Shown: positions 1 through 33,195, counted from the first letter of the stretch. The stretch: 46,211 bases of DNA from Candidatus Aerophobetes bacterium Ae_b3b (GCA_005223085.1 NJBP01000008.1:1-46211), one strand, 5' to 3'. The notes: generated by a model from the letters alone, not told the origin. Made by a program: numbers and translations.

Positions 1-395
1 CTTTCTAACTCGGCATTTATCCCCAAATTTTGTAGACCGAGGATTATAGCCTCATGAACTAGCTGCTGCGTTTTTGTAATATCCCTAAAGGTAGGAAATT
101 CATTGGTAGAGCAAGCTAAAGAATAGGTTATCTCATTTCTATGAAGTATCGCGCCTCCTCCGGTAAAGCGCCTGACAATGGTAATTTTTTGTCTTTTGTA
201 TTCTTCTAGGGAGGGGTCTTCTATTCTCTGAAAGTAGCCGATGGAGATAGCCGCTGGTTTCCAGGCATAGAATCGAAGGGTAGCAGGAAGGCCTAGTTTC
301 TCTCTCGTGACGAATATAGCGTCGTCTATAGCCATATTGGTATAGGCATCTAGATAGCCAGAATCAATCAATCGCCACTCTTCTTTTCTTTCCAT
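1..395 (-). CDS. lplA: Lipoate-protein ligase A family protein (partial, N-terminal part)
   Basis: This family attaches lipoate (or octanoate) to the lysine of lipoyl domains such as GcvH. Translating the minus strand from the ATG at 393-395 gives about 131 residues before the window ends. They begin WRLIDSGYLDAY..NMAIDDA and contain RRFTGGGAILH, the signature of the biotin/lipoate A/B ligase fold. The start lies inside the end of gcvPB (28-base overlap), so it is translationally linked to the glycine operon. That context makes GcvH the likely substrate. The C-terminal part is outside the window, so LplA, LipM and LipL types cannot be separated. The family is clear; the exact activity is inferred. 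Confidence 0.85.
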   Translation of the reverse strand, partial: MERKEEWRLIDSGYLDAYTNMAIDDAIFVTREKLGLPATLRFYAWKPAAISIGYFQRIEDPSLEEYKRQKITIVRRFTGGGAILHRNEITYSLACSTNEFPTFRDITKTQQLVHEAIILGLQNLGINAELE

Positions 396-1828
396 CTCAG
401 CTTTAGCTCTTTAGCTGCCTTTACCTCATCCAGCCGGCCAATGGACAAATTATGGGGAGCCTGCTTAACTAAAGAGGGATCGTCGTCTATCTCTTTTCTA
501 ATTTGAATCATAGAAGATACAAAGGCATCCAGGGTTTCCTTGGACTCGGTCTCGGTGGGCTCAATCATTAAGGCTTCTTTCACAATTAAAGGGAAATATA
601 TCGTAGGAGGATGAAAGCCGAAGTCCAAAAGGCGTTTAGCAATGTCCAGGGTTCTTACATCCTTCATCTTTCCCTCTACTCCCGAAAGAACAAACTCGTG
701 CATACAGGGTTGATCGTAGGGAAGATAAAAATACCTTTTTAGTTTGCTCATCAGGTAGTTAGCATTTAAAACAGCATTTTGGCTGACCTTTTTTAGTCCC
801 TCTCTTCCTAAAAATCTTAGATAACAGTATGCTTTGATGATGACCTCGATGTTCCCATAAAAAGATCTCACCTTTCCTATAGACCTGGCTCTATCGTAGT
901 CAAGATAATAACCCTTCTTATCTTTTTCTACCGTTGGTGCAGGTAGATAGGCAGCAAGCTTTCCTTTGACTCCTAGGGGTCCTGAACCGGGGCCTCCTCC
1001 TCCATGAGGGGTGGAAAAAGTCTTGTGGAGATTAAAGTGCATTATATCTATCCCCAAATCAGAGGGTTTAACTATTCCTAAGAGGGCATTTAGATTGGCA
1101 CCGTCCAGGTAAAGAAAGCCTCCCCTATCATGGATAATCCTGCTAACCTCGAGGATATTCCTCTCAAATAGACCTAAAGTGTTAGGAATGGTGAGCATTA
1201 AAACAGCCACTCTTTCGCTCATCTTGCCTTTTAGATCCTCTAAATCTATTCCTCCATCTTTATTCGATTTTACCACTACTGTTCGAAATCCACAGAGATG
1301 AGAGCTGGCAGGATTGGTTCCATGAGCAGAGTCTGGTACAAGGACGGTATCTCGATGCTCTTTTATATCCTCATAGTAAGCCTTTATCATCATTAAACTG
1401 GTAAGCTCGCCATGAGCTCCAGCGGCTGGCTGTAGTGATATCCTATCCATTCCCGATATCTCACATAAAAGCTTTTCCATTTCATAAAGTAGCTGCAGGG
1501 TTCCCTGTACACTCGCCTGGGGCTGATAGGGGTGAATTCTGGTAAAGCCGGGTAGATTGGCTATATCCTCATTTACCTTAGGATTGTACTTCATAGTGCA
1601 GGAACCCAGGGAATAAAAGTTTGTGTCTACCCCCATATTTTGCTGAGAGAGCCGCACAAAATGACGAACCACATCGGGCTCACTTACCTCGGGCAAGCCT
1701 AAACTGCCCTGGCGCAGATATTTCTTAGGAATTAGTTTTTCTAGATTCTCTTTGTCTACGTCACACGCAGGAAGTGAACATCCCCTTCTTCCCTTTCTGC
1801 TTTTCTCAAATATTAAAGGCTCTCTCAT
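368..1828 (-). CDS. gcvPB: Glycine dehydrogenase (decarboxylating) subunit 2, P-protein beta
   Basis: This is the C-terminal half of the split P-protein of the glycine cleavage system, which decarboxylates glycine and passes the aminomethyl group to lipoyl-GcvH. At 486 residues it has normal length for GcvPB. The PLP-binding lysine is Lys269 in NLHKTFSTPHGGGGPG, followed by the glycine-rich loop. The motif DSAHGTNPAS near residue 166 is also typical. The start overlaps the stop of gcvPA by four bases (ATGA), so the two subunits should be made in equal amounts. Cytoplasmic; acts with gcvPA, gcvH and the GcvT domains encoded upstream. Confidence 0.97.
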   Translation of the reverse strand: MREPLIFEKSRKGRRGCSLPACDVDKENLEKLIPKKYLRQGSLGLPEVSEPDVVRHFVRLSQQNMGVDTNFYSLGSCTMKYNPKVNEDIANLPGFTRIHPYQPQASVQGTLQLLYEMEKLLCEISGMDRISLQPAAGAHGELTSLMMIKAYYEDIKEHRDTVLVPDSAHGTNPASSHLCGFRTVVVKSNKDGGIDLEDLKGKMSERVAVLMLTIPNTLGLFERNILEVSRIIHDRGGFLYLDGANLNALLGIVKPSDLGIDIMHFNLHKTFSTPHGGGGPGSGPLGVKGKLAAYLPAPTVEKDKKGYYLDYDRARSIGKVRSFYGNIEVIIKAYCYLRFLGREGLKKVSQNAVLNANYLMSKLKRYFYLPYDQPCMHEFVLSGVEGKMKDVRTLDIAKRLLDFGFHPPTIYFPLIVKEALMIEPTETESKETLDAFVSSMIQIRKEIDDDPSLVKQAPHNLSIGRLDEVKAAKELKLRWKEKKSGD

Positions 1829-3171
1829 ACCATATCTTCCAAGAACAGGGTGAGTTTATCAATCTCCTCTCTGGTTCGCTTTTCAGTTATCGAGAATAAT
1901 AAGGAATTCTCCAATTCGGGGTAAAATCTCCCCAGCTCAAATCCCCCCAGGATCTTGTTATCCCAGAGCAGTTTGTTTATCTTATGAGATGAAACGGGAC
2001 ATTTTACAGCGAATTCTTTAAAGAAGGGGCTCCTAAAGGTGAGTTCAAATCCAGGAATCTGGTAAATTCTCTTAGCGGCATAATGTGATTTTTGCAGACA
2101 CAGGTGAGCTACCTTAGCCAGTCCTTCCTCTCCCAGGGTAGATAGGTATATGGTAGCTCTTAAGGCATTCAAAGCCTGGTTGGTACAGATATTGGAGGTT
2201 GCCCTTTCTCTACGTATATGCTGCTCTCTCGTTTGTAAGGTTAAGACGAATCCTCTTCTTCCCTTCTTATCAGTGGTTTCCCCTACTATTCTACCTGGTA
2301 TTTTTCTTAAGAAATCCTTCTTAGAGGTAAAAATTCCCAAATAAGGTCCTCCGAAATTAAGTTTGCCTCCCAGAGCCTGTCCTTCTCCCACGGCTATATC
2401 TGCATTGTATTCTCCCGGAGGGATGACGAGTCCTAAGGATATGGGATCCAGCGAGACAATGTATAAAGAATCAGTCTGGTGAGTAATTTCTTCTATCTCA
2501 TTAACTTTCTCTAAACAGCCAAAAAAGTTGGGATTCTGGATAACCACACAGGCAGTCTCTTTATTTATCTTCTCTTCCAATTTAGCAAGATCGGTTACCC
2601 CATTCTCGTAATCTATCTCTACTATAGATAGGCCTAAGGTTTTGTTTATATAGGTGGTGAGAACCTGACGATATTCCGGGTGAAGAGTCTTAGCTACCAA
2701 AACTTTCTTGCGATGATTAACGTTATGAGCCAGGACAGCCGCCTCAACCAGGGCTGTTGCCCCCTCATAAAGGGAGGCATTGCACACGTCCATTTGAAAG
2801 AGCTTACAGATAAGGCTTTGATATTCATAAGTGGTCTGTAGCATTCCCTGGCTGGCTTCTGCCTGATAGGGAGTGTAGGAGGTATAAAATTCAGATCTAC
2901 TGGAGAGATGATCAACCAGGGAAGGGATAAAATGATCGTAGCTTCCCGCTCCCAGAAAAGACACATATTCATCTAAATGGGCGTTTTTCCTGGATAGCCC
3001 CTTAAGCTCATTAACCAATTCCATCTCTGAGAGCGATGAAGGAAGATTGAGGTCAGTTTTTAATCGTAAATTTCGAGGGATACTATCAAACAGATCCTCT
3101 ATGGACCTAGCTCCTATCTCTTTTAGCATCTCCTTTTGGTCTTTTTCGGTATTGGGAATATAGGGAATCAC
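1825..3171 (-). CDS. gcvPA: Glycine dehydrogenase (decarboxylating) subunit 1, P-protein alpha
   Basis: This is the N-terminal half of the split P-protein (448 residues, full length for GcvPA). It starts MIPYIPNTEKDQKEML and carries FLGAGSYDHFIP and YTPYQAEASQGMLQ, all typical of the subunit. It forms a heterotetramer with GcvPB; the catalytic PLP lysine is on GcvPB, and this subunit contributes to the active site and dimer interface. The start overlaps gcvH by four bases and the stop overlaps gcvPB by four bases, so gcvH-gcvPA-gcvPB is one tightly coupled unit. Split P-proteins are usual in Firmicutes, Thermotogae, archaea and many candidate phyla. Confidence 0.97.
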   Translation of the reverse strand: MIPYIPNTEKDQKEMLKEIGARSIEDLFDSIPRNLRLKTDLNLPSSLSEMELVNELKGLSRKNAHLDEYVSFLGAGSYDHFIPSLVDHLSSRSEFYTSYTPYQAEASQGMLQTTYEYQSLICKLFQMDVCNASLYEGATALVEAAVLAHNVNHRKKVLVAKTLHPEYRQVLTTYINKTLGLSIVEIDYENGVTDLAKLEEKINKETACVVIQNPNFFGCLEKVNEIEEITHQTDSLYIVSLDPISLGLVIPPGEYNADIAVGEGQALGGKLNFGGPYLGIFTSKKDFLRKIPGRIVGETTDKKGRRGFVLTLQTREQHIRRERATSNICTNQALNALRATIYLSTLGEEGLAKVAHLCLQKSHYAAKRIYQIPGFELTFRSPFFKEFAVKCPVSSHKINKLLWDNKILGGFELGRFYPELENSLLFSITEKRTREEIDKLTLFLEDMV

Positions 3172-3578
3172 TTTTTTTCCTTCCTCACGAGCTCCTCATA
3201 CTCTTCTGAACCCATCAAAGTATCGAGTTCAGTTTCATCCCCTATCTTTATCTTGATCATCCACCCTTTGCCGTACGGATCTTGAGTTATTATCTCTGGT
3301 TCTCTAGATAACTTCTCATTTACCTTGACTACCGTTCCACTTACTGGTGAGTGTAAATCAGAGACAGCCTTAACTGATTCTACAACCCCAAAAGAGGACC
3401 CCTTGGTAACTTTTGCTCCCATAGAGGGAAGCTCTACATAGACCAGGTCGGTCAACTGTTTGGTGGCAAAATCTGTAATGCCGACAGTAGCAGTATCCTT
3501 ATCGACTCCTACCCACTCGTGGGTCTCGCTATACTTCAAGTTTTTCGGATACACTCTATTCTCCGTTTTTTCGATCAT
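3168..3578 (-). CDS. gcvH: Glycine cleavage system H protein
   Basis: GcvH is the lipoylated shuttle that carries the aminomethyl group from P-protein to T-protein. At 136 residues it has normal length. The lipoyl-attachment lysine is Lys70 in FGVVESVKAVSDLHSP, within the hammerhead fold. KYSETHEWV near the N-terminus and DPYGKGWMIKI near the C-terminus are typical. The start lies 23 bases inside the end of the transketolase gene, so transketolase and gcvH are translationally linked. Its lipoylation is probably served by the ligase at the end of the operon. Confidence 0.97.
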   Translation of the reverse strand: MIEKTENRVYPKNLKYSETHEWVGVDKDTATVGITDFATKQLTDLVYVELPSMGAKVTKGSSFGVVESVKAVSDLHSPVSGTVVKVNEKLSREPEIITQDPYGKGWMIKIKIGDETELDTLMGSEEYEELVRKEKK

Positions 3579-5589
3579 ATAATTCTTTGGCTCTTTTTGC
3601 TATATGCTCAGCCGTTAATCCAAATATTTTCATCAACTCCCAGGGTGCCCCAGATTCACCAAACTTATCCTCCACTCCCACCATCCCCATTAACAATGGT
3701 GCATCGTATCTCTTACCCTGTCCTATCACTCCGGCAACAATATTTCCAAAACCGCCAACCTGGTGTTCCTCTGCCGTTATTATAATCCCTGTTTCTTCCG
3801 CTGCCTTTACAATTGCCTTCCTATCAATGGGCTTAACTGTATGTACATTTAGTATCCTTACCTCAATTCCGTATTCTTCTTTCAAAATATAAGCTGCCCT
3901 CATTGCCTCTGGCACCATAGGTCCACAGGCAATTATACTTAAATCTTCATTTTCTGACTTATAATTAGGGGAAAGCTTTACCTCAAATGCCTCGATGAAG
4001 TTTTTTTTCTCACCTCGGTATCTTATTATATTGGCTAAACCAAACTTATAGGGAGTATCCTTGGTGGTCACTAGGGGAGTTGCTTCCCTGGCGTACCTAA
4101 CCACCGCGGGTCCCTCAATAAAAGCAATAAATTCGGTCGCTTTTTCTGTCTCCAGTGAATCACAAGGGATGACCATATGCATATTAGGTAAATAACAGAT
4201 GTTGGTAATTTCCTCCAATGCTTGATGGGTAGCTCCATCTTGTCCTACCGAAATACCACCGTGAGCATCGGCAACTTTTACATTGAAGTTGTTATAGCAT
4301 ACCGTAGTCCTTAGTTGATCCCAATTTCTACCGGTTACGAAAACTCCGTAGGATCCAATAAATGGTATTTTCCCCTCCTTGGCTAAGCCAGATGCTACCA
4401 GAGCCATATTAGCCTCAGCTATACCTATACTGAGGAACCTATTTCTCCTCTCCGGATGCTCGGCATAGAACTTATTCATTCTTATTGAGCTGGTAATATC
4501 AGCCCCTAATGCAACAACTCTTTCATCACTACCTAATTTTTCTATAGCTCTGCCAAAACCATTTCGGGTAGCATCCATCTCAACTTTCATTGTATAGGAT
4601 GAATTCCACCAATAATTTCTGCTAAATCCAGGCATGGAAGTCTCTATCTTCTTATCCACTTCCTTTTGATAATCATCAGCGATTTTTAGTAGTTTATCTA
4701 CTTTTTCTTTAGTAAAGGAAGGATCTCCTATGTCCTCTAAGGCCCTGTCCAATGACTCTTTCCCTGATCTTCCGTCTTTAGGGGCTATACCATGATAACC
4801 TACTACATCCTCAGCATAGGAAACACCTTTTCCTTTGGTTGTTTGAGCAATTATTACTGATGGTTTTCCTTTCACCTTCTCAGCCTCATCAAGGGCATCC
4901 AGGATCTCTTTCATATTATGACCATCAATCTCAATAGTATTCCATCCAAAGGCTCTCCATTTATCAACCAGAGATTCCAGTCTCATAACTTCCTCGGTAG
5001 GACCATCAATTTGCAAGCCATTTCTGTCGACAATAGAGACCAGGTTGTCTAATTTATAATGAGCAGCACACATTATGGCCTCCCAAATAGAACCCTCATC
5101 AAGCTCCCCATCTCCATTAATACAGTAAACTCGGTAGTTTTTCTCCTCTAATTTAGCATTAAGGGCACAGCCCACTGCCACACCCAGACCCTGTCCCAAA
5201 GATCCAGCGGAAAGCTCAACTCCTGGTAGTTTTAATCTATGGGGATGACCTTCAAAGCCAGACCATAATTTTCTTAACTTTACCACCTCTTCTACTGGGA
5301 AATAACCGGCTTCACCCAAAGCCACATAAAGAGCCGGAGCTTTGTGACCAGTGGACCAGAAAACTCTGTCCCTATCTTCCCAATTGGGATTTTGGGGGTC
5401 ATGCCTTATTTTTTTAAGATATAAGGCGGCAGCAATATCCATGATTGAGAGAGTCCCCCCGGTATGTCCTGAGCGAGCTGCAGTAAGACTAACCATATTA
5501 TAAGCTCTCATTTCCCTTGTTTTCTCTATCAACTCTTCCATTGTATAATCCCTTTTTACCTTTCCTGTCTTAGAATCGATAATTGGCAT
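3556..5589 (-). CDS. tkt: Transketolase, single chain, similar to fused archaeal-type halves
   Basis: This thiamine-diphosphate enzyme moves two-carbon ketol units between sugar phosphates. At 677 residues it has full transketolase length. The ThDP/metal motif starts with GDGE at residues 159-162 and ends at Asn190. GHTGGTLS (41-48) and the C-terminal TAEEHQVGGFG region are also typical. The sequence style (WSTGHKAPALYVALGEAGYF; C-half GPMVPEAMRAA) resembles the two-subunit transketolases of archaea joined in one chain. It sits inside the glycine operon between the SHMT-GcvT fusion and gcvH, which is unusual. A preceding AGGGGAG gives a good ribosome site. Why it is co-regulated with glycine is not known. 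Confidence 0.93.
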   Translation of the reverse strand: MPIIDSKTGKVKRDYTMEELIEKTREMRAYNMVSLTAARSGHTGGTLSIMDIAAALYLKKIRHDPQNPNWEDRDRVFWSTGHKAPALYVALGEAGYFPVEEVVKLRKLWSGFEGHPHRLKLPGVELSAGSLGQGLGVAVGCALNAKLEEKNYRVYCINGDGELDEGSIWEAIMCAAHYKLDNLVSIVDRNGLQIDGPTEEVMRLESLVDKWRAFGWNTIEIDGHNMKEILDALDEAEKVKGKPSVIIAQTTKGKGVSYAEDVVGYHGIAPKDGRSGKESLDRALEDIGDPSFTKEKVDKLLKIADDYQKEVDKKIETSMPGFSRNYWWNSSYTMKVEMDATRNGFGRAIEKLGSDERVVALGADITSSIRMNKFYAEHPERRNRFLSIGIAEANMALVASGLAKEGKIPFIGSYGVFVTGRNWDQLRTTVCYNNFNVKVADAHGGISVGQDGATHQALEEITNICYLPNMHMVIPCDSLETEKATEFIAFIEGPAVVRYAREATPLVTTKDTPYKFGLANIIRYRGEKKNFIEAFEVKLSPNYKSENEDLSIIACGPMVPEAMRAAYILKEEYGIEVRILNVHTVKPIDRKAIVKAAEETGIIITAEEHQVGGFGNIVAGVIGQGKRYDAPLLMGMVGVEDKFGESGAPWELMKIFGLTAEHIAKRAKELYDRKNGE

Positions 5590-5753: not shown

Positions 5754-8700
5754 CTACATTTCACTGTTCTCCCTCTCTGGGAAACGGCTTAAAACTATAG
5801 CTTCTTGATGAAGAAGGACCTTATCTCCTCTGGTTAGTTCATCTTTAGGAGCCTCTGGAGAAAATTTTCCTCCCCGTGGAAGCATAAATATTCCCATTGT
5901 TCTTCCTTCCTCGGCAAAATTTTTATCAACATAAGCTAATCCAACTTGAATTCCTTCCACCAGGGCGGAGCTCGTGACTCTACCCATATATTGACCTTTT
6001 TCATCAACAACAGGGTCTTCAGATTTTACCATTCTGATGCCTTTAGATTTCATCTTAAAACGAATAACCTCCATTTTCCTTTGGGCTTGCCTTTCTAAAA
6101 GGCACTTTTTCCCAATAAAGTAAGGTTTGTGAAGTTTAACAAATGCCCCATAGCCAGCCTCGGTAGGGGTAATACCGTATTTGCCAGCTAATTCATGCCC
6201 GTACAAGGGTAGACCAGCTTTAACCCTGGTTGAATCTCGGGCCCCCAGACCGGAGGGTTTAATACCAAACTCTTTGCCTTCTTGTAAAAGCAGAGTCCAA
6301 ATGAGAGGAGCATCCCCAGGATGTAGATAAAGCTCATAACCGATGTCTTCTCCAGTATAACCGCTGCGGGAAATTATCATCTTTATTCCGGCCAGCGTAA
6401 CCTCTATAAATTCATTTTTTGCCATCCTGGCTAATTTTCTCTTTAGTTCTTTCTCTTTGGCCAATTTCTGTAATATGGAGAGCGAATTAGGGCCCTGGAG
6501 AGCCAGATCAACTTTTTGATCCTTTACCGATGAACTACTCTTTAAATCCTTAAGAACCGCCTTCCCTTCAACCTCTTTATTGGGGTGGTCTCGATCTATA
6601 AGGAATTTTTTGGAATTGACGGCATTTAGCCAGGCCCAGATCTTTTTCTCATTAACAGCATTGACCACCATCATATATCGATCGTGACGGCGGCGATAGA
6701 TCATAACATCATCCAGGATATTACCATCCGGATCGAGAAGGTACGCGTACTGAGATTGCCCGTCTTTCAACCATCGCACATAGTTGGTAGAAACTGTATC
6801 TAAGAAACTGGCGGCGTGCTCACCGGCAATTTCTATCACTCCCATGTGGGTTACATCAAAAAGTCCGGCTGCCTCCCTTACCGCCCGGTGCTCCTCACTA
6901 ATACTGGTGTAACAAACTGGCATCTTCCAACCGGCAAACCTAATAAACCTGGCACCTAGTCTCAAATGCTCCTCATATAGAGGAGTTTGTCTCACCTTGT
7001 CTTTCTCTTCCTTATAGTGAAACTCCTCTTTCACCGCCGAAGATTCTAGCGCCTTATTGATAATCTTTTGTCCGACAAAATAGGGCTTGGATAGATGAAA
7101 ATAAGAGGGGTGAGTCTTATACAGAGAAAGTCCGTCAGTTGTAGATTTAGGGTTTTCTTCGGAAGGTAGGCCTGCTTCTGAATAAAGGTGTTGTCTGGTC
7201 AAAAGCCCGGCTGCCTTAATGCCAAACTCTTCCCCTTGCCTTAAAAGTAGATTCCAGAGCTTGATGGCGTCATCCGGGTGGATATAGAATTCAAATCCTG
7301 AAGATTCCTGGGTATAACCGGTTCGGGAAATGATTCCTTCGATCTCTTTAATCTTCCCTGACCGGAAATGAAATTTCTTAAGATTCGCTAACGAAGGGTC
7401 TATTTTGCTGAGGATCCTGGAAGAGTTTGGTCCGTACAAAGCTATTCCCATCCTGCGTGAGCCTTCTTCGACAGTCTCCCTCAAATCCTCCACTACTGCT
7501 GGTCCTTCAATTTTGGCAAATATATCATTACTATCAAAACTAATATATCCGTCCGAATGTCCCCGAAGCCATAACTTTACCTTTTCAGTAGGGGATGGAT
7601 TAGTTACCACCAAATAGTGATCTCTACCCCTATTATCGCAATTTAGGTAGAGGATAGAAACATCATCGATAAGTTGAGCTCGCCTGTCCAGAAGAAAAGA
7701 ACGCAGGAGCTGCCCCGGCTTAAGCTTGGCTAGATTATTGGTAGATACCCCTTGAAGAAGCGGCTTCGCTCTTTCTCCACTTACCTTGAGTAGTCCCATG
7801 TCGCCCAGGTCAAAAATGGCAGCCGTTCTGCGGACTGCTTTAAGTTCTTCGGTAACATTTTGATAATGAAGAGGCATCTTCCAACCGTTATTTTCGACTA
7901 GCTTCGCTCCTAACTTTTGATGCTGGGTGAGTAACCTGGTCTCTTTCACTGACGGTTTTGTGGCAAGATCGTAATGGGGATAACCAAGCTTAGCCGATCG
8001 GTCATGGAGGGAGACTTGAGCTTTTGCTCTGTGGGTCAGCTCGGCCACTTCGTGTTTTACTTCCTCAAGAGTCTCCAGATCTATCTTTCCTCTGGATAGG
8101 TCCCCAGCCAGCCCTATGTAGCTAAAGGGCTGAATACTCATCAGCACCCGGTGAATAAGTTCGGCTAACTTCTCCATCTCCTCTTTTCCTAGTCCTCGCT
8201 GGGTAATCCAGGGGGTTCCCAGACGGATGCCGCTGGCGTCGGCGGCTGTCTCATCACCAGGAATAGTGTTCTTGTTAACCACCAGACCGCAAAGATCCAG
8301 GATGCGAGCCGCTATTTCACCCTTTAGAGGAAAGCCGGTCCTGGTTTTGATAGCCTTTAGATCGATTACTAAAAGGTGAGTATTGGTTCCTCCATAGGCT
8401 ATCTTTAAGCCTCGCTTCTTAAGAGAGGAAGCTAAAACTTTGGCGTTTTCCACAATTTTTTCTTGGAGTTTTTTAAACTTCTCTGTCTGGGCAATCTTAA
8501 AAGCTACGGCCATAGCGGCAAACTTGTTAACGTGAGGACCACCCTGCTCGCCAGGAAAGACAGCATTATCTATTCTTTGGGCCTTCTCCTCATCAGTGGT
8601 CAAAATGATCGCACCCCGTGGCCCGCAAAGAGTCTTATGGGTGGTTAAGGTAATTACATCAGCATGACCAACCGGACTCGGATATTGCCCCGCAATCACC

Positions 8701-9536
8701 AGTCCCGCGGGATGAGCAATATCAGCAAAGAGTATGGCTCCCACCGTATCGGCAATCTCCCTGAACTTCTGCCAGTCAGGAGCCCAGGGATAGGAGGTAT
8801 AGCCGGCGATGATCATTTTCGGTTTATGCTCGATGGCCAGTCTTTTGATCACCTCATAATCTAGCCTTTCTGTTTCTTCACTGACTTCATAGGAGATAAT
8901 ATGATAGCGCCTGCCGGATCGGTTGAACTGGCTGCCGTGGGTTAGATGTCCTCCATGGGCTAAAGCCATACCCATAACCGTATCGCCGGGTTCAACAAAA
9001 GCCTCATAGACAGAGTTGTTAGCCGCTGCTCCCGAGAGGGGTTGTACATTGACAAATATTTGATCAGCCCTAATCTTTATGCGAGAATGGGGATTTTTCT
9101 CGGTAGCAAAGCATTGGGCGGCCCGCCTCTGGGCCAAACTCTCAACAAAATTGACGTACTCGCCCCCTTTGTAAAATCTTCTGTCAGCATAGCGTCGGTA
9201 GTGGGCAAGCTGATCCTTGAAATCTAATAGCAGCCTTTCTTCATCCCTGGTCATCTTTAAGGGAGGATATCCTTCCGCATAGAGGTTAGTGAAGACCGAG
9301 CCCAGGGCCTGCCGGACAGCTTGGGGACAGATGCTTTCCGAGGGAATGAGGATGAGCTTCTTTGCTTGCCGCTCTTCCTCAAAGCTGATGATTAGATCTG
9401 TATCCGGGTCTATTCCAGAAAGATTTTCCTCCAGGAGAAAATTTGAATACTCCTGATCACTTTTTCCTGAGGATGCTTCCTTTGATGAAAACTTCCTTCT
9501 TTTCATGAATAAATTCCTGTTAGCTAGATCTGGCAT
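5754..9536 (-). CDS. SHMT-GcvT-GcvT fusion protein
   Basis: One unbroken 1260-residue reading frame joins three folate enzymes. Residues about 45-470 are serine hydroxymethyltransferase: Glu67 in PSES, Asp272 in ADIAHPAG, the PLP lysine Lys301 in TTHKT and Arg438 in GIRLGTPW are all present. Residues about 536-835 are a first aminomethyltransferase domain with Asp624/625 but no C-terminal GcvT barrel, and its ARDSLR-like segment reads TRQHLY. Residues about 850-1250 are a complete GcvT with Asp942/943, GYTGED, ARDSTR and the C-terminal domain. The SHMT part has an extra stretch of roughly 29 residues near 92-122. The T-protein makes methylene-THF and SHMT uses it, so channeling is plausible. 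Start could be Met1 or Met11 (9506); both ribosome sites are weak. Confidence 0.95.
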   Translation of the reverse strand: MPDLANRNLFMKRRKFSSKEASSGKSDQEYSNFLLEENLSGIDPDTDLIISFEEERQAKKLILIPSESICPQAVRQALGSVFTNLYAEGYPPLKMTRDEERLLLDFKDQLAHYRRYADRRFYKGGEYVNFVESLAQRRAAQCFATEKNPHSRIKIRADQIFVNVQPLSGAAANNSVYEAFVEPGDTVMGMALAHGGHLTHGSQFNRSGRRYHIISYEVSEETERLDYEVIKRLAIEHKPKMIIAGYTSYPWAPDWQKFREIADTVGAILFADIAHPAGLVIAGQYPSPVGHADVITLTTHKTLCGPRGAIILTTDEEKAQRIDNAVFPGEQGGPHVNKFAAMAVAFKIAQTEKFKKLQEKIVENAKVLASSLKKRGLKIAYGGTNTHLLVIDLKAIKTRTGFPLKGEIAARILDLCGLVVNKNTIPGDETAADASGIRLGTPWITQRGLGKEEMEKLAELIHRVLMSIQPFSYIGLAGDLSRGKIDLETLEEVKHEVAELTHRAKAQVSLHDRSAKLGYPHYDLATKPSVKETRLLTQHQKLGAKLVENNGWKMPLHYQNVTEELKAVRRTAAIFDLGDMGLLKVSGERAKPLLQGVSTNNLAKLKPGQLLRSFLLDRRAQLIDDVSILYLNCDNRGRDHYLVVTNPSPTEKVKLWLRGHSDGYISFDSNDIFAKIEGPAVVEDLRETVEEGSRRMGIALYGPNSSRILSKIDPSLANLKKFHFRSGKIKEIEGIISRTGYTQESSGFEFYIHPDDAIKLWNLLLRQGEEFGIKAAGLLTRQHLYSEAGLPSEENPKSTTDGLSLYKTHPSYFHLSKPYFVGQKIINKALESSAVKEEFHYKEEKDKVRQTPLYEEHLRLGARFIRFAGWKMPVCYTSISEEHRAVREAAGLFDVTHMGVIEIAGEHAASFLDTVSTNYVRWLKDGQSQYAYLLDPDGNILDDVMIYRRRHDRYMMVVNAVNEKKIWAWLNAVNSKKFLIDRDHPNKEVEGKAVLKDLKSSSSVKDQKVDLALQGPNSLSILQKLAKEKELKRKLARMAKNEFIEVTLAGIKMIISRSGYTGEDIGYELYLHPGDAPLIWTLLLQEGKEFGIKPSGLGARDSTRVKAGLPLYGHELAGKYGITPTEAGYGAFVKLHKPYFIGKKCLLERQAQRKMEVIRFKMKSKGIRMVKSEDPVVDEKGQYMGRVTSSALVEGIQVGLAYVDKNFAEEGRTMGIFMLPRGGKFSPEAPKDELTRGDKVLLHQEAIVLSRFPERENSEM

Positions 9537-9541
9537 TTGGC

Positions 9542-10735
9542 CTAAGACTTAGATTCAATAGCTTTTTTAATTCTTTTTACTCCTTCTATTATGTTTTCTC
9601 TGGAGGTTACATAGGATAATCTGATATATTCCTCTTTCTCCCCTTCGTTTCTTTGACCAAAACAGTTTCTGGCCAATACGGCTACGTTTGCTTTGTGTAA
9701 TAGATATTGTTGAAGCTCTTTTGAGTCACGGAAACCAAGATTTCGGCAAGCCTCAGTTACATTTGGGTATATGTAAAAAGCTCCTCGCGGTCTCAGACAT
9801 TTAATCCCTTCGATATCATTCAACCCTTCATAAATAATATCTCTTCTTTTTTGAAATTCTGCTATCATGGCTGAAGATTCCGCCTGCGGGCCTTTCAGAG
9901 CCTCTATTCCTGCATACTGGGTAAATGTTGCCGTACAGGAATCAACGTTGGTTTCTATTCTTGCAATATGTACGGCCAACTCCTTCTTCATTATCCCAAA
10001 TCCCAATCGCCAGCCAGTCATGGCGTAAGTCTTAGAAAATCCATCAACCAGAATCGTTCTATCTTTCATGCCGGGGATAGAAATGATACTTCGAAACTCC
10101 CCATCATAGATGATCTTAGAGTAGATCTCATCAGACAAAACCCAAAGATCAGCTTGGATAGCTATTTCAGCAATAGTTTCCAGATCATCCGGGCTTAAGA
10201 TGCCCCCGGTGGGATTGTGGGGAGAATTGAGAATGATCATCCTCGTCTTGGGGGTTATCCTCATCCTTAGATCCTCTGGATCAAAACTGAAGCTTTTCTC
10301 TTCCAAAAGAGGAAGAGGAACTGATTTCCCTCCTATAAAGTTTATGACCGATTCGTAGATGGGATATCCCGGGTTTGGATATATCACCTCGTCTCCTTCA
10401 TTGACACAGGAAAGGATACTATCAAAAACTATTGGTTTTGCCCCCGGAGTAACCACTACCTCTTCCGGTGTAACCTCGATACCTCTAGTCTCAGAAATGT
10501 AGTGCGCAATTGACTCTCTTAGAGGAAGGATTCCGGCCGAGGGACTATAATGGGTATAACCGTCATTAATGGCCTTCGTTGCTGTATCTTTAACATTCCG
10601 AGGAGTATCAAAATCAGGCTCTCCCAGGGCAAAACTTATAATATTTTGACCTTCTGCTTTGAGCCTATTCACCTCTGCCAAAACTTCAAATGCTGTTTCG
10701 GTCCCTAATCTACCCATTCTTCTTGCTATTTGCAT
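9542..10735 (-). CDS. PLP-dependent class I aminotransferase (AspC-like family)
   Basis: This 397-residue fold-type I aminotransferase moves an amino group between an amino acid and a 2-oxo acid. The PLP lysine is Lys235 in GFSKTYAMTGWRLGF. Asn174 in SPHNPTGG and Asp202/Tyr205 in LSDEIYSK complete the cofactor site, and YIRLSYVT near the C-terminus holds the carboxylate-binding arginine. It is the first gene after the tandem glycine riboswitch and has a good GGAGGT ribosome site. That suggests a substrate linked to glycine, such as glyoxylate, serine, alanine or aspartate. Sequence alone does not separate these, so no gene name is given. Confidence 0.9.
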   Translation of the reverse strand: MQIARRMGRLGTETAFEVLAEVNRLKAEGQNIISFALGEPDFDTPRNVKDTATKAINDGYTHYSPSAGILPLRESIAHYISETRGIEVTPEEVVVTPGAKPIVFDSILSCVNEGDEVIYPNPGYPIYESVINFIGGKSVPLPLLEEKSFSFDPEDLRMRITPKTRMIILNSPHNPTGGILSPDDLETIAEIAIQADLWVLSDEIYSKIIYDGEFRSIISIPGMKDRTILVDGFSKTYAMTGWRLGFGIMKKELAVHIARIETNVDSCTATFTQYAGIEALKGPQAESSAMIAEFQKRRDIIYEGLNDIEGIKCLRPRGAFYIYPNVTEACRNLGFRDSKELQQYLLHKANVAVLARNCFGQRNEGEKEEYIRLSYVTSRENIIEGVKRIKKAIESKS

Positions 10736-10920: not shown

Positions 10921-11003
10921 TCGATTAAGGTCCTTTTGCCTGAGAGTTTAAACTAAAGGTTGCCCCTTCGGCGCCAGATGTTCTTGGTCTCTCCCTTAAT
11001 CGT
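10921..11003 (-). ncRNA. Glycine riboswitch, aptamer 1 (promoter-proximal)
   Basis: Helix P1 is a perfect 9-base pairing of CGATTAAGG (10994-11002 read on minus) with CCTTAATCG (10922-10930). Inside are GGAGAGACC, GCCGAAGGGGCAACC and the strongly conserved CTCAGGCAAAAGGACC. Together with aptamer 2 this is the classic tandem arrangement. Confidence 0.95.
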
Positions 11004-11036
11004 CCTCTACTAATACCATATTTTCAATCGTATTAG

Positions 11037-11064
11037 ATTTTATACACAATTTATGTTTTGTCAA
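11037..11064 (-). promoter_or_regulatory. Sigma-70-type promoter of the glycine operon
   Basis: On the minus strand a perfect TTGACA (-35, 11059-11064) is followed after 16 bases by TAAAAT (-10, 11037-11042), with TGTG just before it as an extended -10. The start point would fall near 11030, shortly before riboswitch aptamer 1. Confidence 0.8.
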
Positions 11065-11070
11065 TCCCCC

Positions 11071-11343
11071 AGAGTCAAGTCCAATTTTTTCTGTAGATTT
11101 CCTCTCAAATGAGGCAAAAACAGAAAAATCTGTTCTTTCTTATTTAGGGCCTGAAGAAAGACTCAACCGAGAATAAACTTTTTCTATTGGGAATCGGCAC
11201 AGTAAAAGAGCTCTCTATGTGCGGGCGGATACAACACCTATATCAACCTCTTTTTTTAGGAGCTTTTGGCAAAAGGTCTCTATTATCCCTTTTAGAAAGC
11301 CCTTGACAAAGTACCTCTATTATTGTTAGACACAGTTTTAACA
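11071..11343. other. Intergenic stretch without a recognisable gene
   Basis: About 270 bases separate the glycine operon promoter from the end of the ATP-grasp gene. It is A+T-rich. I see no ORF with a family match, no RNA motif and no clear hairpin followed by a U-tract in it. Confidence 0.5.
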
Positions 11344-12243
11344 TCATAGGGAACTTCCCAAACGAACCTGAATATAATGATAAATTTCTTGAGGAACGTT
11401 CAGACCCGTTGCCTTTTCAAAACCCTCAAACCCAGGGGAAGAGTTCACCTCGCAAACTCTGTAACTATCACCATCAAAAAGAATATCTATGCCAGCTATA
11501 TCCAGCCCCACAAGCTTCGCAGATTCCACGGCAAGCCACTCCACTGCAGGATTTAGATCAAAAGGTGCAACTGTTCCTCCCGCAGAAAAATTGGCTTTGA
11601 GCTTCCCTTCTCTGGCTATCCTTACCATTGCTCCAATATGCCTTCTACCTACAACAAAGACTCGAATGTCTTTTCCGTTACCGAATAAAACGAATTCCTG
11701 AATGATTACATTAACTCTCTGATCTTTCGAGACTTCTATGAGGTCTGCAAGGTCTTTCATCTGGACTCTGTTCTCGCAAAGAAAAACTCCCTTTCCATAA
11801 GAGCCTGAAACAGTCTTTACTATCAACGGATAAGTGAATTCCCTCTCAACAATATCAATGTTCAAGGGGAACTTAGCAAGCATAGTTTTAGGAATTGGAA
11901 CATTATTTGTAGCAAGGATTTGCAGGGTTGTCAGTTTATTTTTGGCATTTTCTATGCTCTGGCTGGAATTTAGAACAAAAAGGCCCAATCTCTCAAGATG
12001 TCGTATCATCGCTAAAGCAAAATATGTTGTGCCTGCACCCATTCTTGGAATCAAACAGTCCGGCAAATCTACAGGACTGCCGTTGTGAAGGATGCTCCTT
12101 CGCCCCTCTTTTGTAACGACAATATCGAATTCTTCAGGTCCAACTATTTGGAGTTCAATTCCCATTTGTTCGGCTTCCTTATGAAAACGCCTGTTTTCGT
12201 AAGAGTTAAAATTTTCTTTCTTTGCAAGAATCCAGGCTTTCAT
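11344..12243 (-). CDS. RimK-family ATP-grasp ligase
   Basis: ATP-grasp enzymes of this family join an amino acid (often glutamate) to a carboxylate of a protein or cofactor: RimK on ribosomal S6, MptN/CofF on coenzymes, LysX on the LysW carrier. The chain shows the ATP-grasp core: PLIVKTVSGSYGKGV (nucleotide loop), IIQEFV, DIRVFVVG, and the metal site GIDILFDGD...VCEVNSSPGFEGFEKATG, typical of RimK. I place the start at the ATG giving MKAWILAKK (299 residues), which matches the family N-terminus; an in-frame TTG at 12276 is less likely. It stands alone, so the substrate is unknown. Confidence 0.85.
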   Translation of the reverse strand: MKAWILAKKENFNSYENRRFHKEAEQMGIELQIVGPEEFDIVVTKEGRRSILHNGSPVDLPDCLIPRMGAGTTYFALAMIRHLERLGLFVLNSSQSIENAKNKLTTLQILATNNVPIPKTMLAKFPLNIDIVEREFTYPLIVKTVSGSYGKGVFLCENRVQMKDLADLIEVSKDQRVNVIIQEFVLFGNGKDIRVFVVGRRHIGAMVRIAREGKLKANFSAGGTVAPFDLNPAVEWLAVESAKLVGLDIAGIDILFDGDSYRVCEVNSSPGFEGFEKATGLNVPQEIYHYIQVRLGSSL

Positions 12244-12407
12244 ATCTTTTTTGCTACTCCATTTGGTTTTTCTCAAATTGAGTCTCTTCCGAAAATTTTA
12301 ACCTTTGCTCAAAAGGTCTGCATGGGAATGACCTCTACTTTCATTGGGCCCCAGAAAGGTAGGCTCCTTAATAGTCAGCTTAACTCTTCAAGGGCGTATC
12401 TGAGCTA

Positions 12408-12608
12408 TTACTTTTTTTCTTCCTTTTTTTCTTCCTTCTCTGCCTTCCTCACAAAGCCTCTAATCGCGCCACCAACGATCCAGCACACTAAGGCAGCAAA
12501 AATAGAAGGGTTGGTTGGGAGTAAGTTGAAGGCCGGGCCCGCCAATATCACTATGAGTCCAAGTACTCCCAGAACTGCTGCGATAATTCCTGCGATCTTC
12601 TTGTTCAT
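12408..12608 (-). CDS. Small membrane protein of unknown function
   Basis: A 66-residue protein with two hydrophobic segments (about residues 5-27 and 34-54) and a highly charged tail of Lys and Glu. An excellent ribosome site (AGGAGGTGACT) precedes the ATG, so it is probably expressed. It is the last gene of a run of small membrane proteins (12408-13295). I do not recognise a family. The tail suggests a cytoplasmic end that contacts another protein or the membrane surface. Confidence 0.7.
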   Translation of the reverse strand: MNKKIAGIIAAVLGVLGLIVILAGPAFNLLPTNPSIFAALVCWIVGGAIRGFVRKAEKEEKKEEKK

Positions 12609-12633
12609 TTCCAGTCACCTCCTGTCACTAGGT

Positions 12634-12702
12634 TTAAGTATGCGAGTTCGCTCCACGCATGTCAAGTAGCGCATTCGGGTTCTCGAAGTCGCCGAAGGCC
12701 AT
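12634..12702 (-). CDS. Possible 22-residue peptide gene
   Basis: A short ORF beginning MAFGDFENPNALL lies 21 bases after the 118-residue membrane protein gene. AAAGAGG sits at suitable distance before its ATG. Most codons end in G or C, as in the two genes upstream, which argues for real coding sequence or for the remnant of a longer gene. No family is recognised. Confidence 0.35.
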   Translation of the reverse strand: MAFGDFENPNALLDMRGANSHT

Positions 12703-12723
12703 CTGCGCCTCTTTCTGACCCTC

Positions 12724-13080
12724 TTACTGTGTAGCCTTTATCATTTTCCGCATGCCCACAAGTGCGCAGGCCCAGCCTGGTACTGAGAAGAACATTGAAA
12801 GGAATGCTGCCACGGTGGCAACGCCGGGATTGTGTGTCATCAAATCAGGGCTGAGCAAATTGCCCGGCGGCCCGCCAATACCGCAGGCAAACCACGCCCC
12901 GAAGAAGAGGAACATATATCCGAACATGTTCCACTTGGTAGCTGACCGTAGCGCTCCCTTGGCCAAGCTGTAGGCCTTCAGCCAGTTCCAGACAACCAGG
13001 GTGAAGAGCACGGCGCCGGCCGATCCAAACGTGCCAAAGTAGAGCCACATCCAGATAGGATGACTCGTTGCGAAGTTCAT
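12724..13080 (-). CDS. Membrane protein of unknown function (118 aa)
   Basis: This protein has about three membrane segments (residues about 8-32, 48-66 and 85-108) with a glycine/proline loop GIGGPPGN between the second and third. It starts four bases inside the preceding small membrane gene (ATGA overlap) and has a strong AAGGAGGTG ribosome site. The two genes are therefore co-translated and may form a complex. The coding sequence is visibly richer in G+C than the housekeeping genes around it. I do not recognise a family and assign no function. Confidence 0.75.
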   Translation of the reverse strand: MNFATSHPIWMWLYFGTFGSAGAVLFTLVVWNWLKAYSLAKGALRSATKWNMFGYMFLFFGAWFACGIGGPPGNLLSPDLMTHNPGVATVAAFLSMFFSVPGWACALVGMRKMIKATQ

Positions 13081-13295
13081 TTGATCACCTCCTTAGCCTT
13101 TTTCCCGTAGACCAATCCGCCGATGACCATCAGCACTGCGCCGATAGGCACGGAGTAGCCCCATATGCTAGGCGGTACCGATGGGTAGGCCAGCGGTATC
13201 CCCATCAAGGCCCACAGGAAAGAAGCTGTTGTGTAAACGTGCATAGAGAAAACGCCCAGAGCAAAAAGCACCAATCCCCACGTCTTACTTTGCAT
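13077..13295 (-). CDS. Small two-helix membrane protein of unknown function (72 aa)
   Basis: The protein runs from MQSKTWGLVLFALG to a basic end KKAKEVIK, with two membrane segments (about residues 5-30 and 46-64) joined by a proline-rich loop (PSVPPSIWGY). I chose the ATG at 13295 because AGGAGG lies seven bases before it; a longer reading to 13358 lacks such a site. It is the first gene of the G+C-rich small-membrane-protein cluster and is preceded by a promoter at 13389-13418. Function unknown. Confidence 0.7.
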   Translation of the reverse strand: MQSKTWGLVLFALGVFSMHVYTTASFLWALMGIPLAYPSVPPSIWGYSVPIGAVLMVIGGLVYGKKAKEVIK

Positions 13296-13388
13296 AGTTT
13301 TCCTCCTTTTTGGTTCTAAAATGTAGGATTGAGCTGACCATTTTTTGGGGAAGGTCATCCACTATTTCGATTCTTTCTATTCTATAAG

Positions 13389-13418
13389 ATAACATGTACA
13401 TATAAGAAATATTGTCAA
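13389..13418 (-). promoter_or_regulatory. Putative promoter of the small membrane protein cluster
   Basis: On the minus strand TTGACA (13413-13418) and TGTTAT (13389-13394) are separated by 18 bases. Transcription would start about 90 bases before the 72-residue gene. The rest of the 219-base gap shows no gene. Confidence 0.5.
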
Positions 13419-13514
13419 CCCCCTTTTTCGGTTGCCCTAGCCCGAAAAATTGGAAGTTAGTCTTGAATGATCAATTTTTGCACGGCTTGCCTCAAGGAGA
13501 AAAGGAGGACGGGT

Positions 13515-15071
13515 TTATTTTTTTAACTCGACATAGCTCCTTGAAATTTTAAAAACATAAGGTAATGCCACCAGTCCCCCATAGTAGATAATCAAAAGAA
13601 TCGGCGAAAAGGATCCCACCCCAGGACAGAGTAAATTGGAGATAGTTCTCGATTGAGAAAAAGAGAAAAAGTTAACCAGCCGCAAAAGACCGGTAAGAGC
13701 TAGCCAATTGGCATTAGCAATTATCTGAGCTCCTCCCAGGGTTATCAATCCCAATGCCAGGCTAAAAAATCCCAAAGCCAGGATAATTGTTACCAGGGGA
13801 GTAATAAGGAGATTGGTTAGAAGGCCAATAAGAGGAATTTGATGAAAATAAAAGGCCAGCAAGGGAAGAACAGAAAGTTGTGCTGCTAAGGAAATAGCGA
13901 ACGATTTTCTTAACCAGAGAGGTAGTCTTTTAAATCTTTTTTCCAGATGAGGGGTAAGATAGATTATTCCTCCCACCGCTATAAAGGAAAGCTGAAAACT
14001 GGCGGTGAAAAGAGAAAGCGGACTGAGCGCGAGAATAAAAAGAGCAGCAAGACTAAGGATGACAAAAGGAGAGATATCTCTGTTAATCAATAGACATCCC
14101 AGTCCCACTCCCGCCATTAAAGTTGCCCGGCCCACTGGAGGCCGAAGGCCTGTCAGAACCGCATAATATGCCAGAAGAGGCATAACCAAAAGAGAGGTCA
14201 ATTCAAAGGAAAGTCCCAGAGTCCTGAAAAAAACCAAGAGGATAAACAAGATCAATCCCACATGTAGACCACTTACCACTAAGATATGGCCTGTACCTGT
14301 TTTAAGGAACGTATTTTTAACCTCAGCAGGAAGAGAATCCTTATCTCCCAGCATGATAGCCTTTAAGATAGCAGATTGAGGCTGAGGCAAGAGGTGCTCG
14401 ATTAATCTTACCATCCGGTCTCGGCTCCTGTAGGCCCACTTCATTAAAGGATTTCCTCGGCCTCTTTTTATGAGCTCTACTTTTCCTGTACCCAGTTCAA
14501 CCCAGATTCCCTGATAGGATAAATATTTTTGCCAGTTAAATCCTCCTTCTTTTTCTCCTTTTGGTAAAGTTAGCTTTCCTTCAACCTTGACCTCATCCCC
14601 ATAATCATAATTCAACAGAGGAAGATAGCTTATCACCCAGACCTTTCCTTTTACTTCTTTTTCTATTTTCCCTGAACCATTCTCTTTCTCCGCACCCATC
14701 TTCAGGGATCCATTTTTAGAAGCTATTTTCTCCACCTCCATTATAAATCTGATGACTCTTCCCTTTAGCTGTGGGCGATTAATCACTTTTCCGGTTATCT
14801 GCAATGCCTCTTTAGAAGAGGTAAAGTTGATAATATGAGAAGGAGAATGAGGAAAATAGGAATAGCGAAAATAGAGGCTACCTGCCAAAGTGATAAGAGA
14901 AAACAAAAGATACACTACCAAGCTTCTTTTCCCCTTAAGGTAAAAAATAACCGATAAGCCGAACAATAAGAGAAAAGTTAAGTAGAGGGAAAGAAAAGGT
15001 AGAGAGAGATACTTTCCTAAGACTATTCCTGCTATGAAGAAAAGGGTGAGTCCAACAATGGGTTTATTCAT
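13515..15071 (-). CDS. comEC: ComEC/Rec2-type DNA uptake channel, short form
   Basis: ComEC is the inner-membrane channel for single-stranded DNA in natural transformation. The ComEC_N domain (about residues 35-185) is followed by the competence domain with GTGHILVVSGLHVGLI and many membrane helices. Family members that also hold a beta-lactamase-like nuclease domain run to about 700-800 residues; this one ends after about 518 residues without it. The ATG at 15071 (MNKPIVGLTLFF) is preferred over an upstream TTG. A comEA-like gene is also in the window at 29814. Whether the short form still imports DNA is uncertain. Confidence 0.85.
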   Translation of the reverse strand: MNKPIVGLTLFFIAGIVLGKYLSLPFLSLYLTFLLLFGLSVIFYLKGKRSLVVYLLFSLITLAGSLYFRYSYFPHSPSHIINFTSSKEALQITGKVINRPQLKGRVIRFIMEVEKIASKNGSLKMGAEKENGSGKIEKEVKGKVWVISYLPLLNYDYGDEVKVEGKLTLPKGEKEGGFNWQKYLSYQGIWVELGTGKVELIKRGRGNPLMKWAYRSRDRMVRLIEHLLPQPQSAILKAIMLGDKDSLPAEVKNTFLKTGTGHILVVSGLHVGLILFILLVFFRTLGLSFELTSLLVMPLLAYYAVLTGLRPPVGRATLMAGVGLGCLLINRDISPFVILSLAALFILALSPLSLFTASFQLSFIAVGGIIYLTPHLEKRFKRLPLWLRKSFAISLAAQLSVLPLLAFYFHQIPLIGLLTNLLITPLVTIILALGFFSLALGLITLGGAQIIANANWLALTGLLRLVNFFSFSQSRTISNLLCPGVGSFSPILLIIYYGGLVALPYVFKISRSYVELKK

Positions 15072-15153: not shown

Positions 15154-16137
15154 TTAGTAAGGTAGGTATTTCTTGGGAAACTTTGCCACTATGGTATAAT
15201 TGGGATCTACCACGTTTCCTACTCGCATCCTGCCAACTTGTGACAGCACCTGTAGGGCTTCCCATTTCTCAAATCCATAATCGGCAACCAACCATTTTAT
15301 GAGTTCCACGTGAGCAATACGGAGAGCATCCATAAGCGGACGTGCACTACCAGCTACCATGAGATAAGCTGGATTCTCCATCCGAGGCCACTCTACAGTT
15401 TTATTCTTAATCACTTCCAGCTTCAAGGTCACCTGAGCAGTTGTTTCCAGGGCGACTCCGCAGATCTCTCCGTCTCCCTGCGCCGCATGAACATCCCCGA
15501 ATGAAAGATGCGCTCCTTTTACCCATATGGGTAGGTAAAGGATTGCGCCTTCTTTTGTCTCCACACAGTCCATATTTCCGCCGTACTCACCTGGAACAAG
15601 CGCTGTTTCTACACGTCCAAATCGGGGAGCGACCCCTATGGAACCAATGAAAGGATGGAGAGGAATTTGAATTTTCTCTAGTTTGCTTTTAGAAAGTTTT
15701 AGGGTCCCCATTTGAGAGCCTAGATCAAGCTCCCACTGGTATTTGACTTCTGGCAGAGGCTCATTAAACAAAAGGTCCCTTCCTGTATACTCCCCGGTTA
15801 AGGAACCAAAATGAGGCAAAAGAGAGGAATAGGCGTATCCCCGGTTTAGAAGAATCTTTTCGATACTTATCTTCAGTAGATCACCTGGCTGAGCTTCCTC
15901 AATCCAGATGGGTCCAACCAGAGGATTGGCCTCTTGAAATGTGGTGACCTTGCTTTTCTGTTTTTGGTGTTCCGCCAATGGATTGCCGCAGCAGTCGAAT
16001 CCACCAGCATCTACTGTTGAAGCGGTGACTGAATCACCGCTTCTAATCCGTAGTACCGGTTCGTCCGGACCAAAGGTGTACTGGTAAACTCTGGGTTCTA
16101 ATCTATGGAGTTTGCCTTTTTGTGGAGTAGAAGTCAT
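15154..16137 (-). CDS. Acetamidase/formamidase family protein
   Basis: Enzymes of the FmdA/AmdA family hydrolyse short amides such as formamide or acetamide to ammonia and the acid. The 327-residue chain has the family hallmarks: a repeated beta fold, DAGGFDCCGNP near residue 43, PHFGSLTGEY, FIGSIGVAPRFG, GGNMDC and the metal-site stretch SFGDVHAAQGDGE. It follows the isomerase gene by 9 bases and has an AGGAGG ribosome site, so it ends the sugar operon. Its link to carbohydrate use is not obvious; it may release an amide or act on another amide-like substrate. Confidence 0.88.
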   Translation of the reverse strand: MTSTPQKGKLHRLEPRVYQYTFGPDEPVLRIRSGDSVTASTVDAGGFDCCGNPLAEHQKQKSKVTTFQEANPLVGPIWIEEAQPGDLLKISIEKILLNRGYAYSSLLPHFGSLTGEYTGRDLLFNEPLPEVKYQWELDLGSQMGTLKLSKSKLEKIQIPLHPFIGSIGVAPRFGRVETALVPGEYGGNMDCVETKEGAILYLPIWVKGAHLSFGDVHAAQGDGEICGVALETTAQVTLKLEVIKNKTVEWPRMENPAYLMVAGSARPLMDALRIAHVELIKWLVADYGFEKWEALQVLSQVGRMRVGNVVDPNYTIVAKFPKKYLPY

Positions 16138-32954: not shown

Positions 32955-33029
32955 TGGAGCCGACGATAGGATTTGAACCTACAACCTGCTGATTACGAAT
33001 CAGCTGCTCTACCATTGAGCTACGTCGGC
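32955..33029 (-). tRNA. tRNA-Thr (anticodon CGT)
   Basis: The acceptor stem GCCGACG/CGTCGGC, D-loop AGCTCAATGGTAGAGC, anticodon stem GCTGA/TCAGC around loop TTCGTAA, and T-arm GGTTCAAATCC are all present. The 3' CCA is encoded. Anticodon CGT reads ACG. Confidence 0.95.
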
Positions 33030-33030
33030 C

Positions 33031-33106
33031 TGGTGCCGAGGGGCAGAATCGAACTGCCGACACCTGGATTTTCAGTCCAGTGCTCTACCGACTGAGCTAC
33101 CTCGGC
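33031..33106 (-). tRNA. tRNA-Phe (anticodon GAA)
   Basis: Acceptor stem GCCGAGG/CCTCGGC, anticodon stem CTGGA/TCCAG around loop CTGAAAA, T-arm GTTCGATTC, discriminator A and encoded CCA. It lies one base from tRNA-Thr. Confidence 0.96.
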
Positions 33107-33107
33107 A

Positions 33108-33184
33108 TGGCGGGGCCGACGAGACTCGAACTCGCGACCTCCTGATCGACAGTCAGGCATTCTAACCAACTGAACTACGGCCCC
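33108..33184 (-). tRNA. tRNA-Asp (anticodon GTC)
   Basis: Acceptor stem GGGGCCG/CGGCCCC, anticodon stem CCTGA/TCAGG around loop CTGTCGA, T-arm GTTCGAGTC, discriminator G and encoded CCA. Confidence 0.96.
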
Positions 33185-33195
33185 GTCTTATTTCC

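Follow-up and report, generated by a model that had tools for sequence, protein, structure and literature searches.

The window analysed here is the whole 46,211-nucleotide contig NJBP01000008.1 of Candidatus Aerophobetes bacterium Ae_b3b (GCA_005223085.1), from a host genome of 2.04 Mb that is 89% complete. The gene in question lies on its minus strand (window 9536..5754) as a single unbroken frame of 1260 codons with an ATG at 9536, and its product consists of a serine hydroxymethyltransferase (SHMT) domain, a GcvT-like domain and a full GcvT domain in this order (Table 1). The plus-strand translation of the same interval contains many stops. An original prediction, made from the sequence alone, had described one 1260-codon frame of unstated strand, encoding a complete SHMT with Lys301 as the pyridoxal 5'-phosphate (PLP) lysine, followed by two GcvT domains; frame and SHMT were recovered as described, on the minus strand. 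Pfam GCV_T (PF01571) did match twice (420 bits in all), and the second copy (match at residues 853-1131) is complete, but the first is incomplete, as it has no C-terminal barrel and its catalytic aspartate is not conserved. A weak match to GCV_T_C was present only behind the second GCV_T (residues 1159-1216), and the middle domain gave no GCV_T_C match at E 1. An AlphaFold model of residues 36-1235 reached a mean predicted local distance difference test (pLDDT) of 90.4 and a predicted template modelling score (pTM) of 0.89, values that favour a defined, fixed arrangement of the domains in the modelled chain.

Table 1. Features of the fusion gene and its operon, with positions counted from the first letter of the window.
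Feature	Position	Strand	Basis and remarks
SHMT–pseudoGcvT–GcvT fusion gene	5754..9536	-	1260 aa; single open frame; Pfam SHMT and GCV_T x2; conserved in relatives; ratio of nonsynonymous to synonymous substitutions (dN/dS) << 1
SHMT domain, residues 39-470	8127..9422	-	Pfam, NCBIfam, catalytic residues, predicted fold
Insert of 26-27 aa in SHMT folate-binding loop, residues ~92-118, between YAEGYP and RRFYKG	9183..9263	-	Loop length
Middle GcvT-like domain, degenerate, without C-terminal barrel, residues ~529-833	7038..7952	-	PF01571 171 bits, no GCV_T_C; predicted fold
Best-conserved stretch of middle domain, WLRxLSDGYxxFDxxDxxxKxEGPVVVEDL, residues 656-685	7482..7571	-	WL..DGY part used to fetch loci
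Complete GcvT (T-protein) domain, residues 846-1215	5892..7001	-	TIGR00528; residue conservation; catalytic Asp D943 at 6708-6710
Insert of ~20 aa in last GcvT, approx. residues 975-1003, common to middle domain	6528..6614	-	NAxN-to-QGP distance
Class-I aminotransferase	9542..10735	-	PF00155 226 bits; 5 nt upstream of fusion; upstream of fusion in 8 Aerophobetes relatives too
Transketolase, single full-length chain	3556..5589	-	NF004559 619.5 bits (cut-off 488); adjoins fusion operon across Aerophobetes
GcvH lipoyl protein	3168..3578	-	TIGR00527 165.9 bits (cut-off 115.85)
GcvPA	1825..3171	-	NF001696 655.6 bits (cut-off 364)
GcvPB	368..1828	-	NF003346 751.7 bits (cut-off 441)

An alignment of the middle region, run against 84,980 species genomes, retrieved 170 relatives, of which the best 80 were examined; the motifs GERAxxFLQ and WLxxxxDGY were used to fetch these loci, and their conservation was left out of the evidence. 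In nearly all of the 80, one frame, in most cases some 1030-1340 aa long, combines SHMT with a GcvT-like middle and a complete GcvT. Bacteria and archaea (Thermoplasmatota) of about ten phyla in total carry this frame, and a fusion confined to one phylum was therefore rejected. Phylum names were taken from record titles, mostly of metagenome bins, which read Aerophobetes, Chloroflexi/Anaerolineae, Methanomassiliicoccales and other Thermoplasmata, Planctomycetota, Spirochaetes, Myxococcota/Deltaproteobacteria, Poribacteria, Acetothermia, Bacillota, and Actinomycetes. Within Aerophobota, four genomes (G002, G008, G009, and G014) hold the triple fusion as one open frame of 1230-1266 aa with 70-97% identity, two (G011 and G013) have a shortened middle (1119-1120 aa), and in other genomes contig ends cut the fusion. 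Some genomes carry two fusion genes (L083:1568-4915 and 11003-14287; genomes G071, G075, G079, and G080).

Since the source is a metagenome assembly, the possibility that assembly or annotation had wrongly joined three genes had to be considered. However, the frame runs through both junctions (6990 and 7930) without interruption in several independent assemblies, and it recurs in many genomes and phyla, including the single-contig chromosomes CP070739, CP070841, and AP024710. Moreover, dN/dS, calculated between the window and its relatives as well as between relatives, was 0.07-0.11 for SHMT, 0.19-0.28 for the middle domain, 0.10-0.18 for the last GcvT and 0.13-0.42 for the two linkers. As these values are well under 1 in all parts, linkers included, the frame in its entirety is translated, and selected, as a single protein. 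The relatives and the purifying selection leave an artefact with a practically negligible probability, and it was rejected; a chance open frame was likewise rejected by the domain scores and the recurrence of the architecture. The original prediction had named three separate genes in related genomes as the finding that would contradict it; the close relatives proved to be fused, and separate adjacent glyA and gcvT genes were seen only in distant bacteria. In trees that included separate SHMTs and GcvTs sampled from only about 60 genomes, the fused SHMT, middle GcvT and last GcvT each formed one side of a well-supported branch, and thus a single origin with later spread between phyla fits.

The SHMT domain scored 403 bits against Pfam SHMT PF00464 (cut-off 27; residues 41-461) and 446 bits against NCBIfam NF000586 (cut-off 335), and its predicted fold matched Bacillus stearothermophilus SHMT (1kkj) with a Z of 52.7 and a root-mean-square deviation (rmsd) of 1.5 over 403 aa. 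The PLP lysine is K301 in TTHKTLCGPRG, at 8634-8636. In Escherichia coli numbering, the residues by which SHMT binds PLP, the carboxylate and folate are S35, Y55, E57, Y65, D200, H203, H228, K229, R235, and R363; each of them is kept in 70-71 of 71 fusions. Conservation was counted over 71 full-length fusions, and S66, Y86, E88, H197, D272, H300, K301, and R307 were present in all of them, H275 and R438 in 70 and S168 in 69, suggesting that the domain would function as an SHMT. The insert in the folate-binding loop gives a loop length of 28-29 in all 67 fusions in which it was measurable, compared to 2 in 18/18 separate SHMTs.

The last GcvT passed the TIGR00528 equivalog cut-off (235.85 bits) in three phyla, both in the window (262.5 bits) and in fusions of other phyla (250.1, 267.7, and 265.5), archaeal and chloroflexal ones included. 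D96 is the catalytic aspartate of the Thermotoga maritima T-protein and Y83, Y100, Y188, E195, and R227 are its folate residues; these positions were mapped onto the last GcvT, where each is kept in 70-71 of the 71 fusions. Residues Y930, D942, D943, Y1060, E1068, R1100, and D1101 occur in each of the 71 fusions and Y947 in 70, which points to a domain that is probably active as T-protein. The distance from NAxN to QGP, which measures the insert, was 54-57 in 71/71 fusions and 33-36 in 19/19 separate GcvTs. The lineage-specific inserts in SHMT and GcvT suggest built interfaces.

The middle domain was folded separately for the structure search, as the SHMT domain had filled the match list of the full model. 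Its predicted structure has the T-protein fold of the folate-binding part and matched residues 1-280 of the 362 of Bacillus subtilis GcvT (1yx2) with a Z of 34.1 and an rmsd of 2.1 over 276 aa. The equivalents of T. maritima Y83 and Y100 are lost, while Asp, Tyr, Glu, and Arg are retained in the window at the positions of D96, Y188, E195, and R227; the retained residues speak for two active GcvT domains, and hence two aminomethyl transfer sites per SHMT. However, the catalytic position (D625) is Asp in just 29 of the 71 fusions and Glu in 18, and the nearest relatives, including one of the same genus, have Glu. In addition, the stretch from SHMT to the last GcvT is shortened to about 200-270 residues in 43/71 fusions, removing much of the domain, with about six changes between the long and short states on the tree, and the C-terminal barrel is absent. 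Two active GcvT domains are thus very unlikely, and this possibility was rejected on the loss of the aspartate and the repeated truncation. Since the aspartate is not kept, the barrel is gone and the length is often cut, the middle domain is best read as a pseudo-GcvT retained for structure. The WL..DGY part of its best-conserved stretch had served to fetch the loci, and unbiased conservation is limited to FDxxDxxxKxEGP. The insert common to both GcvT domains favours derivation of the middle domain by duplication of the last-GcvT type; the GcvT tree is unrooted and has long middle-domain branches.

The window's operon is tightly packed on the minus strand and would be transcribed in the order aminotransferase, fusion, transketolase, gcvH, gcvPA, and gcvPB. 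In this genome the fusion holds the sole GCV_T domains, with P and H encoded beside it. Among 32 other fusion genomes GcvP was found in 31, and in 21 of the 32 all GCV_T matches lay inside fusion frames. In 17 Aerophobota genomes, GcvP occurs in ten and the fusion in all of these ten, five have neither, and none has a separate GcvT; the association of the fusion with GcvP (10/10 with GcvP versus 2/7 without) gave a one-sided Fisher p of ~0.003, uncorrected for kinship. Neighbours of the fusion in the 80 loci were gcvH (12), gcvP (10), phosphoglycerate-dehydrogenase-like genes (8), DUF1015 (4) and phosphoserine-aminotransferase-family genes (3, of which the one scanned passes its cut-off). In other phyla gcvH or gcvP lies within 6 kb of the fusion, in yet others SerA/SerC genes are near it, and one Spirochaetota locus (L112) has the gene order SerC–fusion–DUF1015–SerA–GcvH–GcvP. 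Since gcv and serine-pathway genes surround the fusion, its setting is glycine/serine metabolism. DUF1015 and SerA-like genes adjoin the fusion in loci L110, L112, L083, and L099 (SerC too in L112), and DUF1015 may belong to serine metabolism.

Because both active sites are conserved, a gcvH-gcvPA-gcvPB operon is present and the fusion is the sole GcvT source, the protein is most naturally read as coupling the cleavage or synthesis of glycine to serine. The original prediction had proposed such a coupling, and it gains support from an SHMT and a bona fide T-protein in one chain, within a gcv operon and without a further GcvT in its own and the 21 other genomes. We therefore propose, with a probability of roughly 0.85, that the gene encodes a bifunctional T-protein/SHMT with a degenerate GcvT spacer, in which local recycling of methylene-tetrahydrofolate (methylene-THF) links glycine and serine. 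The C-terminal T domain would convert the aminomethyl group from GcvH to NH3 and methylene-THF, or the reverse, and the N-terminal SHMT would convert methylene-THF and glycine to serine and THF, or the reverse. The middle duplicated GcvT, having lost catalysis and the C-terminal barrel, may act as a structural spacer or interface. A single chain would hold the two folate sites near each other and in a fixed ratio, such that methylene-THF and THF could be recycled locally as glycine and serine are interconverted. We infer the local folate transfer as well as both activities, the latter from the conserved residues, whereas the fused frame, the residue conservation in SHMT and the last GcvT, its loss in the middle domain, the co-occurrence with GcvP/H and the inserts are direct observations. 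In the host genome the genes for Fhs and FolD adjoin each other, and lipoamide dehydrogenase and carbon monoxide dehydrogenase/acetyl-CoA synthase (CODH/ACS) are encoded as well; hence formate could supply methylene-THF, which would let the system run toward glycine and serine. Possibly both directions of the reaction are used, since these host genes would permit reductive glycine synthesis.

Several observations weigh against this proposal. Extra GCV_T matches lie outside the fusions in 11 of the 32 fusion genomes, and in two Aerophobota genomes (G008 and G016, both ~82% complete) pieces of the fusion are present and GcvP was not found. SHMTs are usually dimers or tetramers, whereas the fusion was modelled as a monomer. 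Furthermore, the host genome encodes an ordinary second SHMT, and thus the fused copy is not necessarily the principal SHMT; since its insert sits exactly in the folate-binding loop, its folate use could also be altered. The fused SHMT might then have another job, acting on another aldol substrate or serving as a structural part, while the ordinary SHMT makes serine, and the long branch between fused and separate SHMTs agrees with this. On the other hand, the residues binding PLP, the substrate carboxylate and folate are kept almost without exception, and glycine-cleavage and serine-pathway neighbours occur in several phyla, making a different job of the fused SHMT improbable.

A T-protein/SHMT fusion might also serve co-production only, setting a 1:1 ratio of the two enzymes whose sites work independently via bulk folate and without channelling. 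This explanation is compatible with the bifunctional core of our proposal and opposes only the local hand-over. Ordinary bacteria do the same job with separate adjacent glyA and gcvT genes, as in the gcs2 operon (PMC4894688). However, the inserts in the SHMT folate loop and in GcvT are kept in essentially all fusions, and together with the conserved degenerate middle they suggest a built arrangement and not a plain linker, and we consider the chances of co-production alone to be about even. Going further than the bifunctional T-protein/SHMT, the fusion could be a widespread enzyme with three domains and a single origin, in which methylene-THF is truly channelled between the T site and SHMT, with the dead GcvT and the two inserts forming a channel or docking surface and the lipoyl arm of GcvH feeding it. 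Two glycines (or CO2, formate, and ammonia) would then become serine on one particle, and in Aerophobota the aminotransferase and transketolase would pull serine via hydroxypyruvate to sugar phosphates; we regard this extended scheme as possible but doubtful.

As for the other genes of the operon, the aminotransferase and transketolase could lead from serine via hydroxypyruvate to sugar phosphates. A transketolase, split in Chloroflexota, is found no further than 6 kb from the fusion in 8 of the 80 loci, and six Anaerolineae loci (L080, L090, L096, L115, L117, and L126) have a MocR-like class-I aminotransferase closely behind the fusion. Elsewhere on the minus strand, the window encodes an acetamidase/formamidase of the FmdA family (15154-16137), a possible source of formate and ammonia, as well as an aldehyde ferredoxin oxidoreductase and a RACo-type corrinoid activator (21784-23604 and 39563-41413), the latter two being consistent with an anaerobic host that has a methyl-folate metabolism. 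Genes for five tRNAs (Thr, Phe, Asp, Val, and Met) are clustered at 32955-33347, on the same strand.

Methylene-THF is an unstable cofactor common to T-protein and SHMT, and its direct hand-over is a natural open question of glycine metabolism. With a natural fusion that is kept in about ten phyla, has its active sites conserved and carries dedicated inserts, this question can be tested on a single purified protein. Engineered reductive glycine pathways, in which the T-protein and SHMT steps run in series, could also use the fusion as a ready-made component. Annotation as a plain SHMT or a plain GcvT would conceal half of the enzyme.

No description of an SHMT–GcvT or glyA–gcvT fusion was found in the full text of open-licence PubMed Central papers, in agreement with the original prediction that the architecture is not well described. 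The fused SHMT resembles GlyA (PF00464; 1kkj) in fold and catalytic residues and differs by the attached GcvT domains and a folate-loop insert absent from the sampled separate SHMTs. Likewise, the last domain keeps the folate and catalytic residues of GcvT (T. maritima 1woo/1wos, B. subtilis 1yx2), but it stands behind an SHMT, is preceded by a degenerate copy and carries the 20-aa insert. The same two enzymes occur beside GcvH/GcvP in glyA–gcvT clusters that lead from glycine to serine or pyruvate, such as plasmid glyA-gcvT pairs and the Pseudomonas gcs2 operon (gcvH2-gcvP2-glyA2-sdaA-gcvT2), which makes pyruvate from glycine (PMC4894688); there, however, the genes are separate and no middle pseudo-domain is present. 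A reverse GcvT–SHMT fusion of 883 aa (G053, L146:2262-4913, minus strand) joins the same two families in one frame and also adjoins a class-I aminotransferase, but it has the opposite order and a very divergent SHMT (129 bits), and it falls outside the fusion clade as an independent case. Protein Data Bank matches of the fusion's GcvT domains include sarcosine oxidase alpha, dimethylglycine oxidase/dehydrogenase, and trimethylamine N-oxide (TMAO) demethylase. In sarcosine oxidase, dimethylglycine oxidase, and TMAO demethylase, a C-terminal GcvT domain handles the one-carbon product of its partner. These known proteins have a single GcvT copy, joined to a flavoprotein or a demethylase, whereas the partner in the fusion is the PLP enzyme SHMT. 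In conclusion, the fusion is a novel arrangement of known enzymes rather than a new kind of system.

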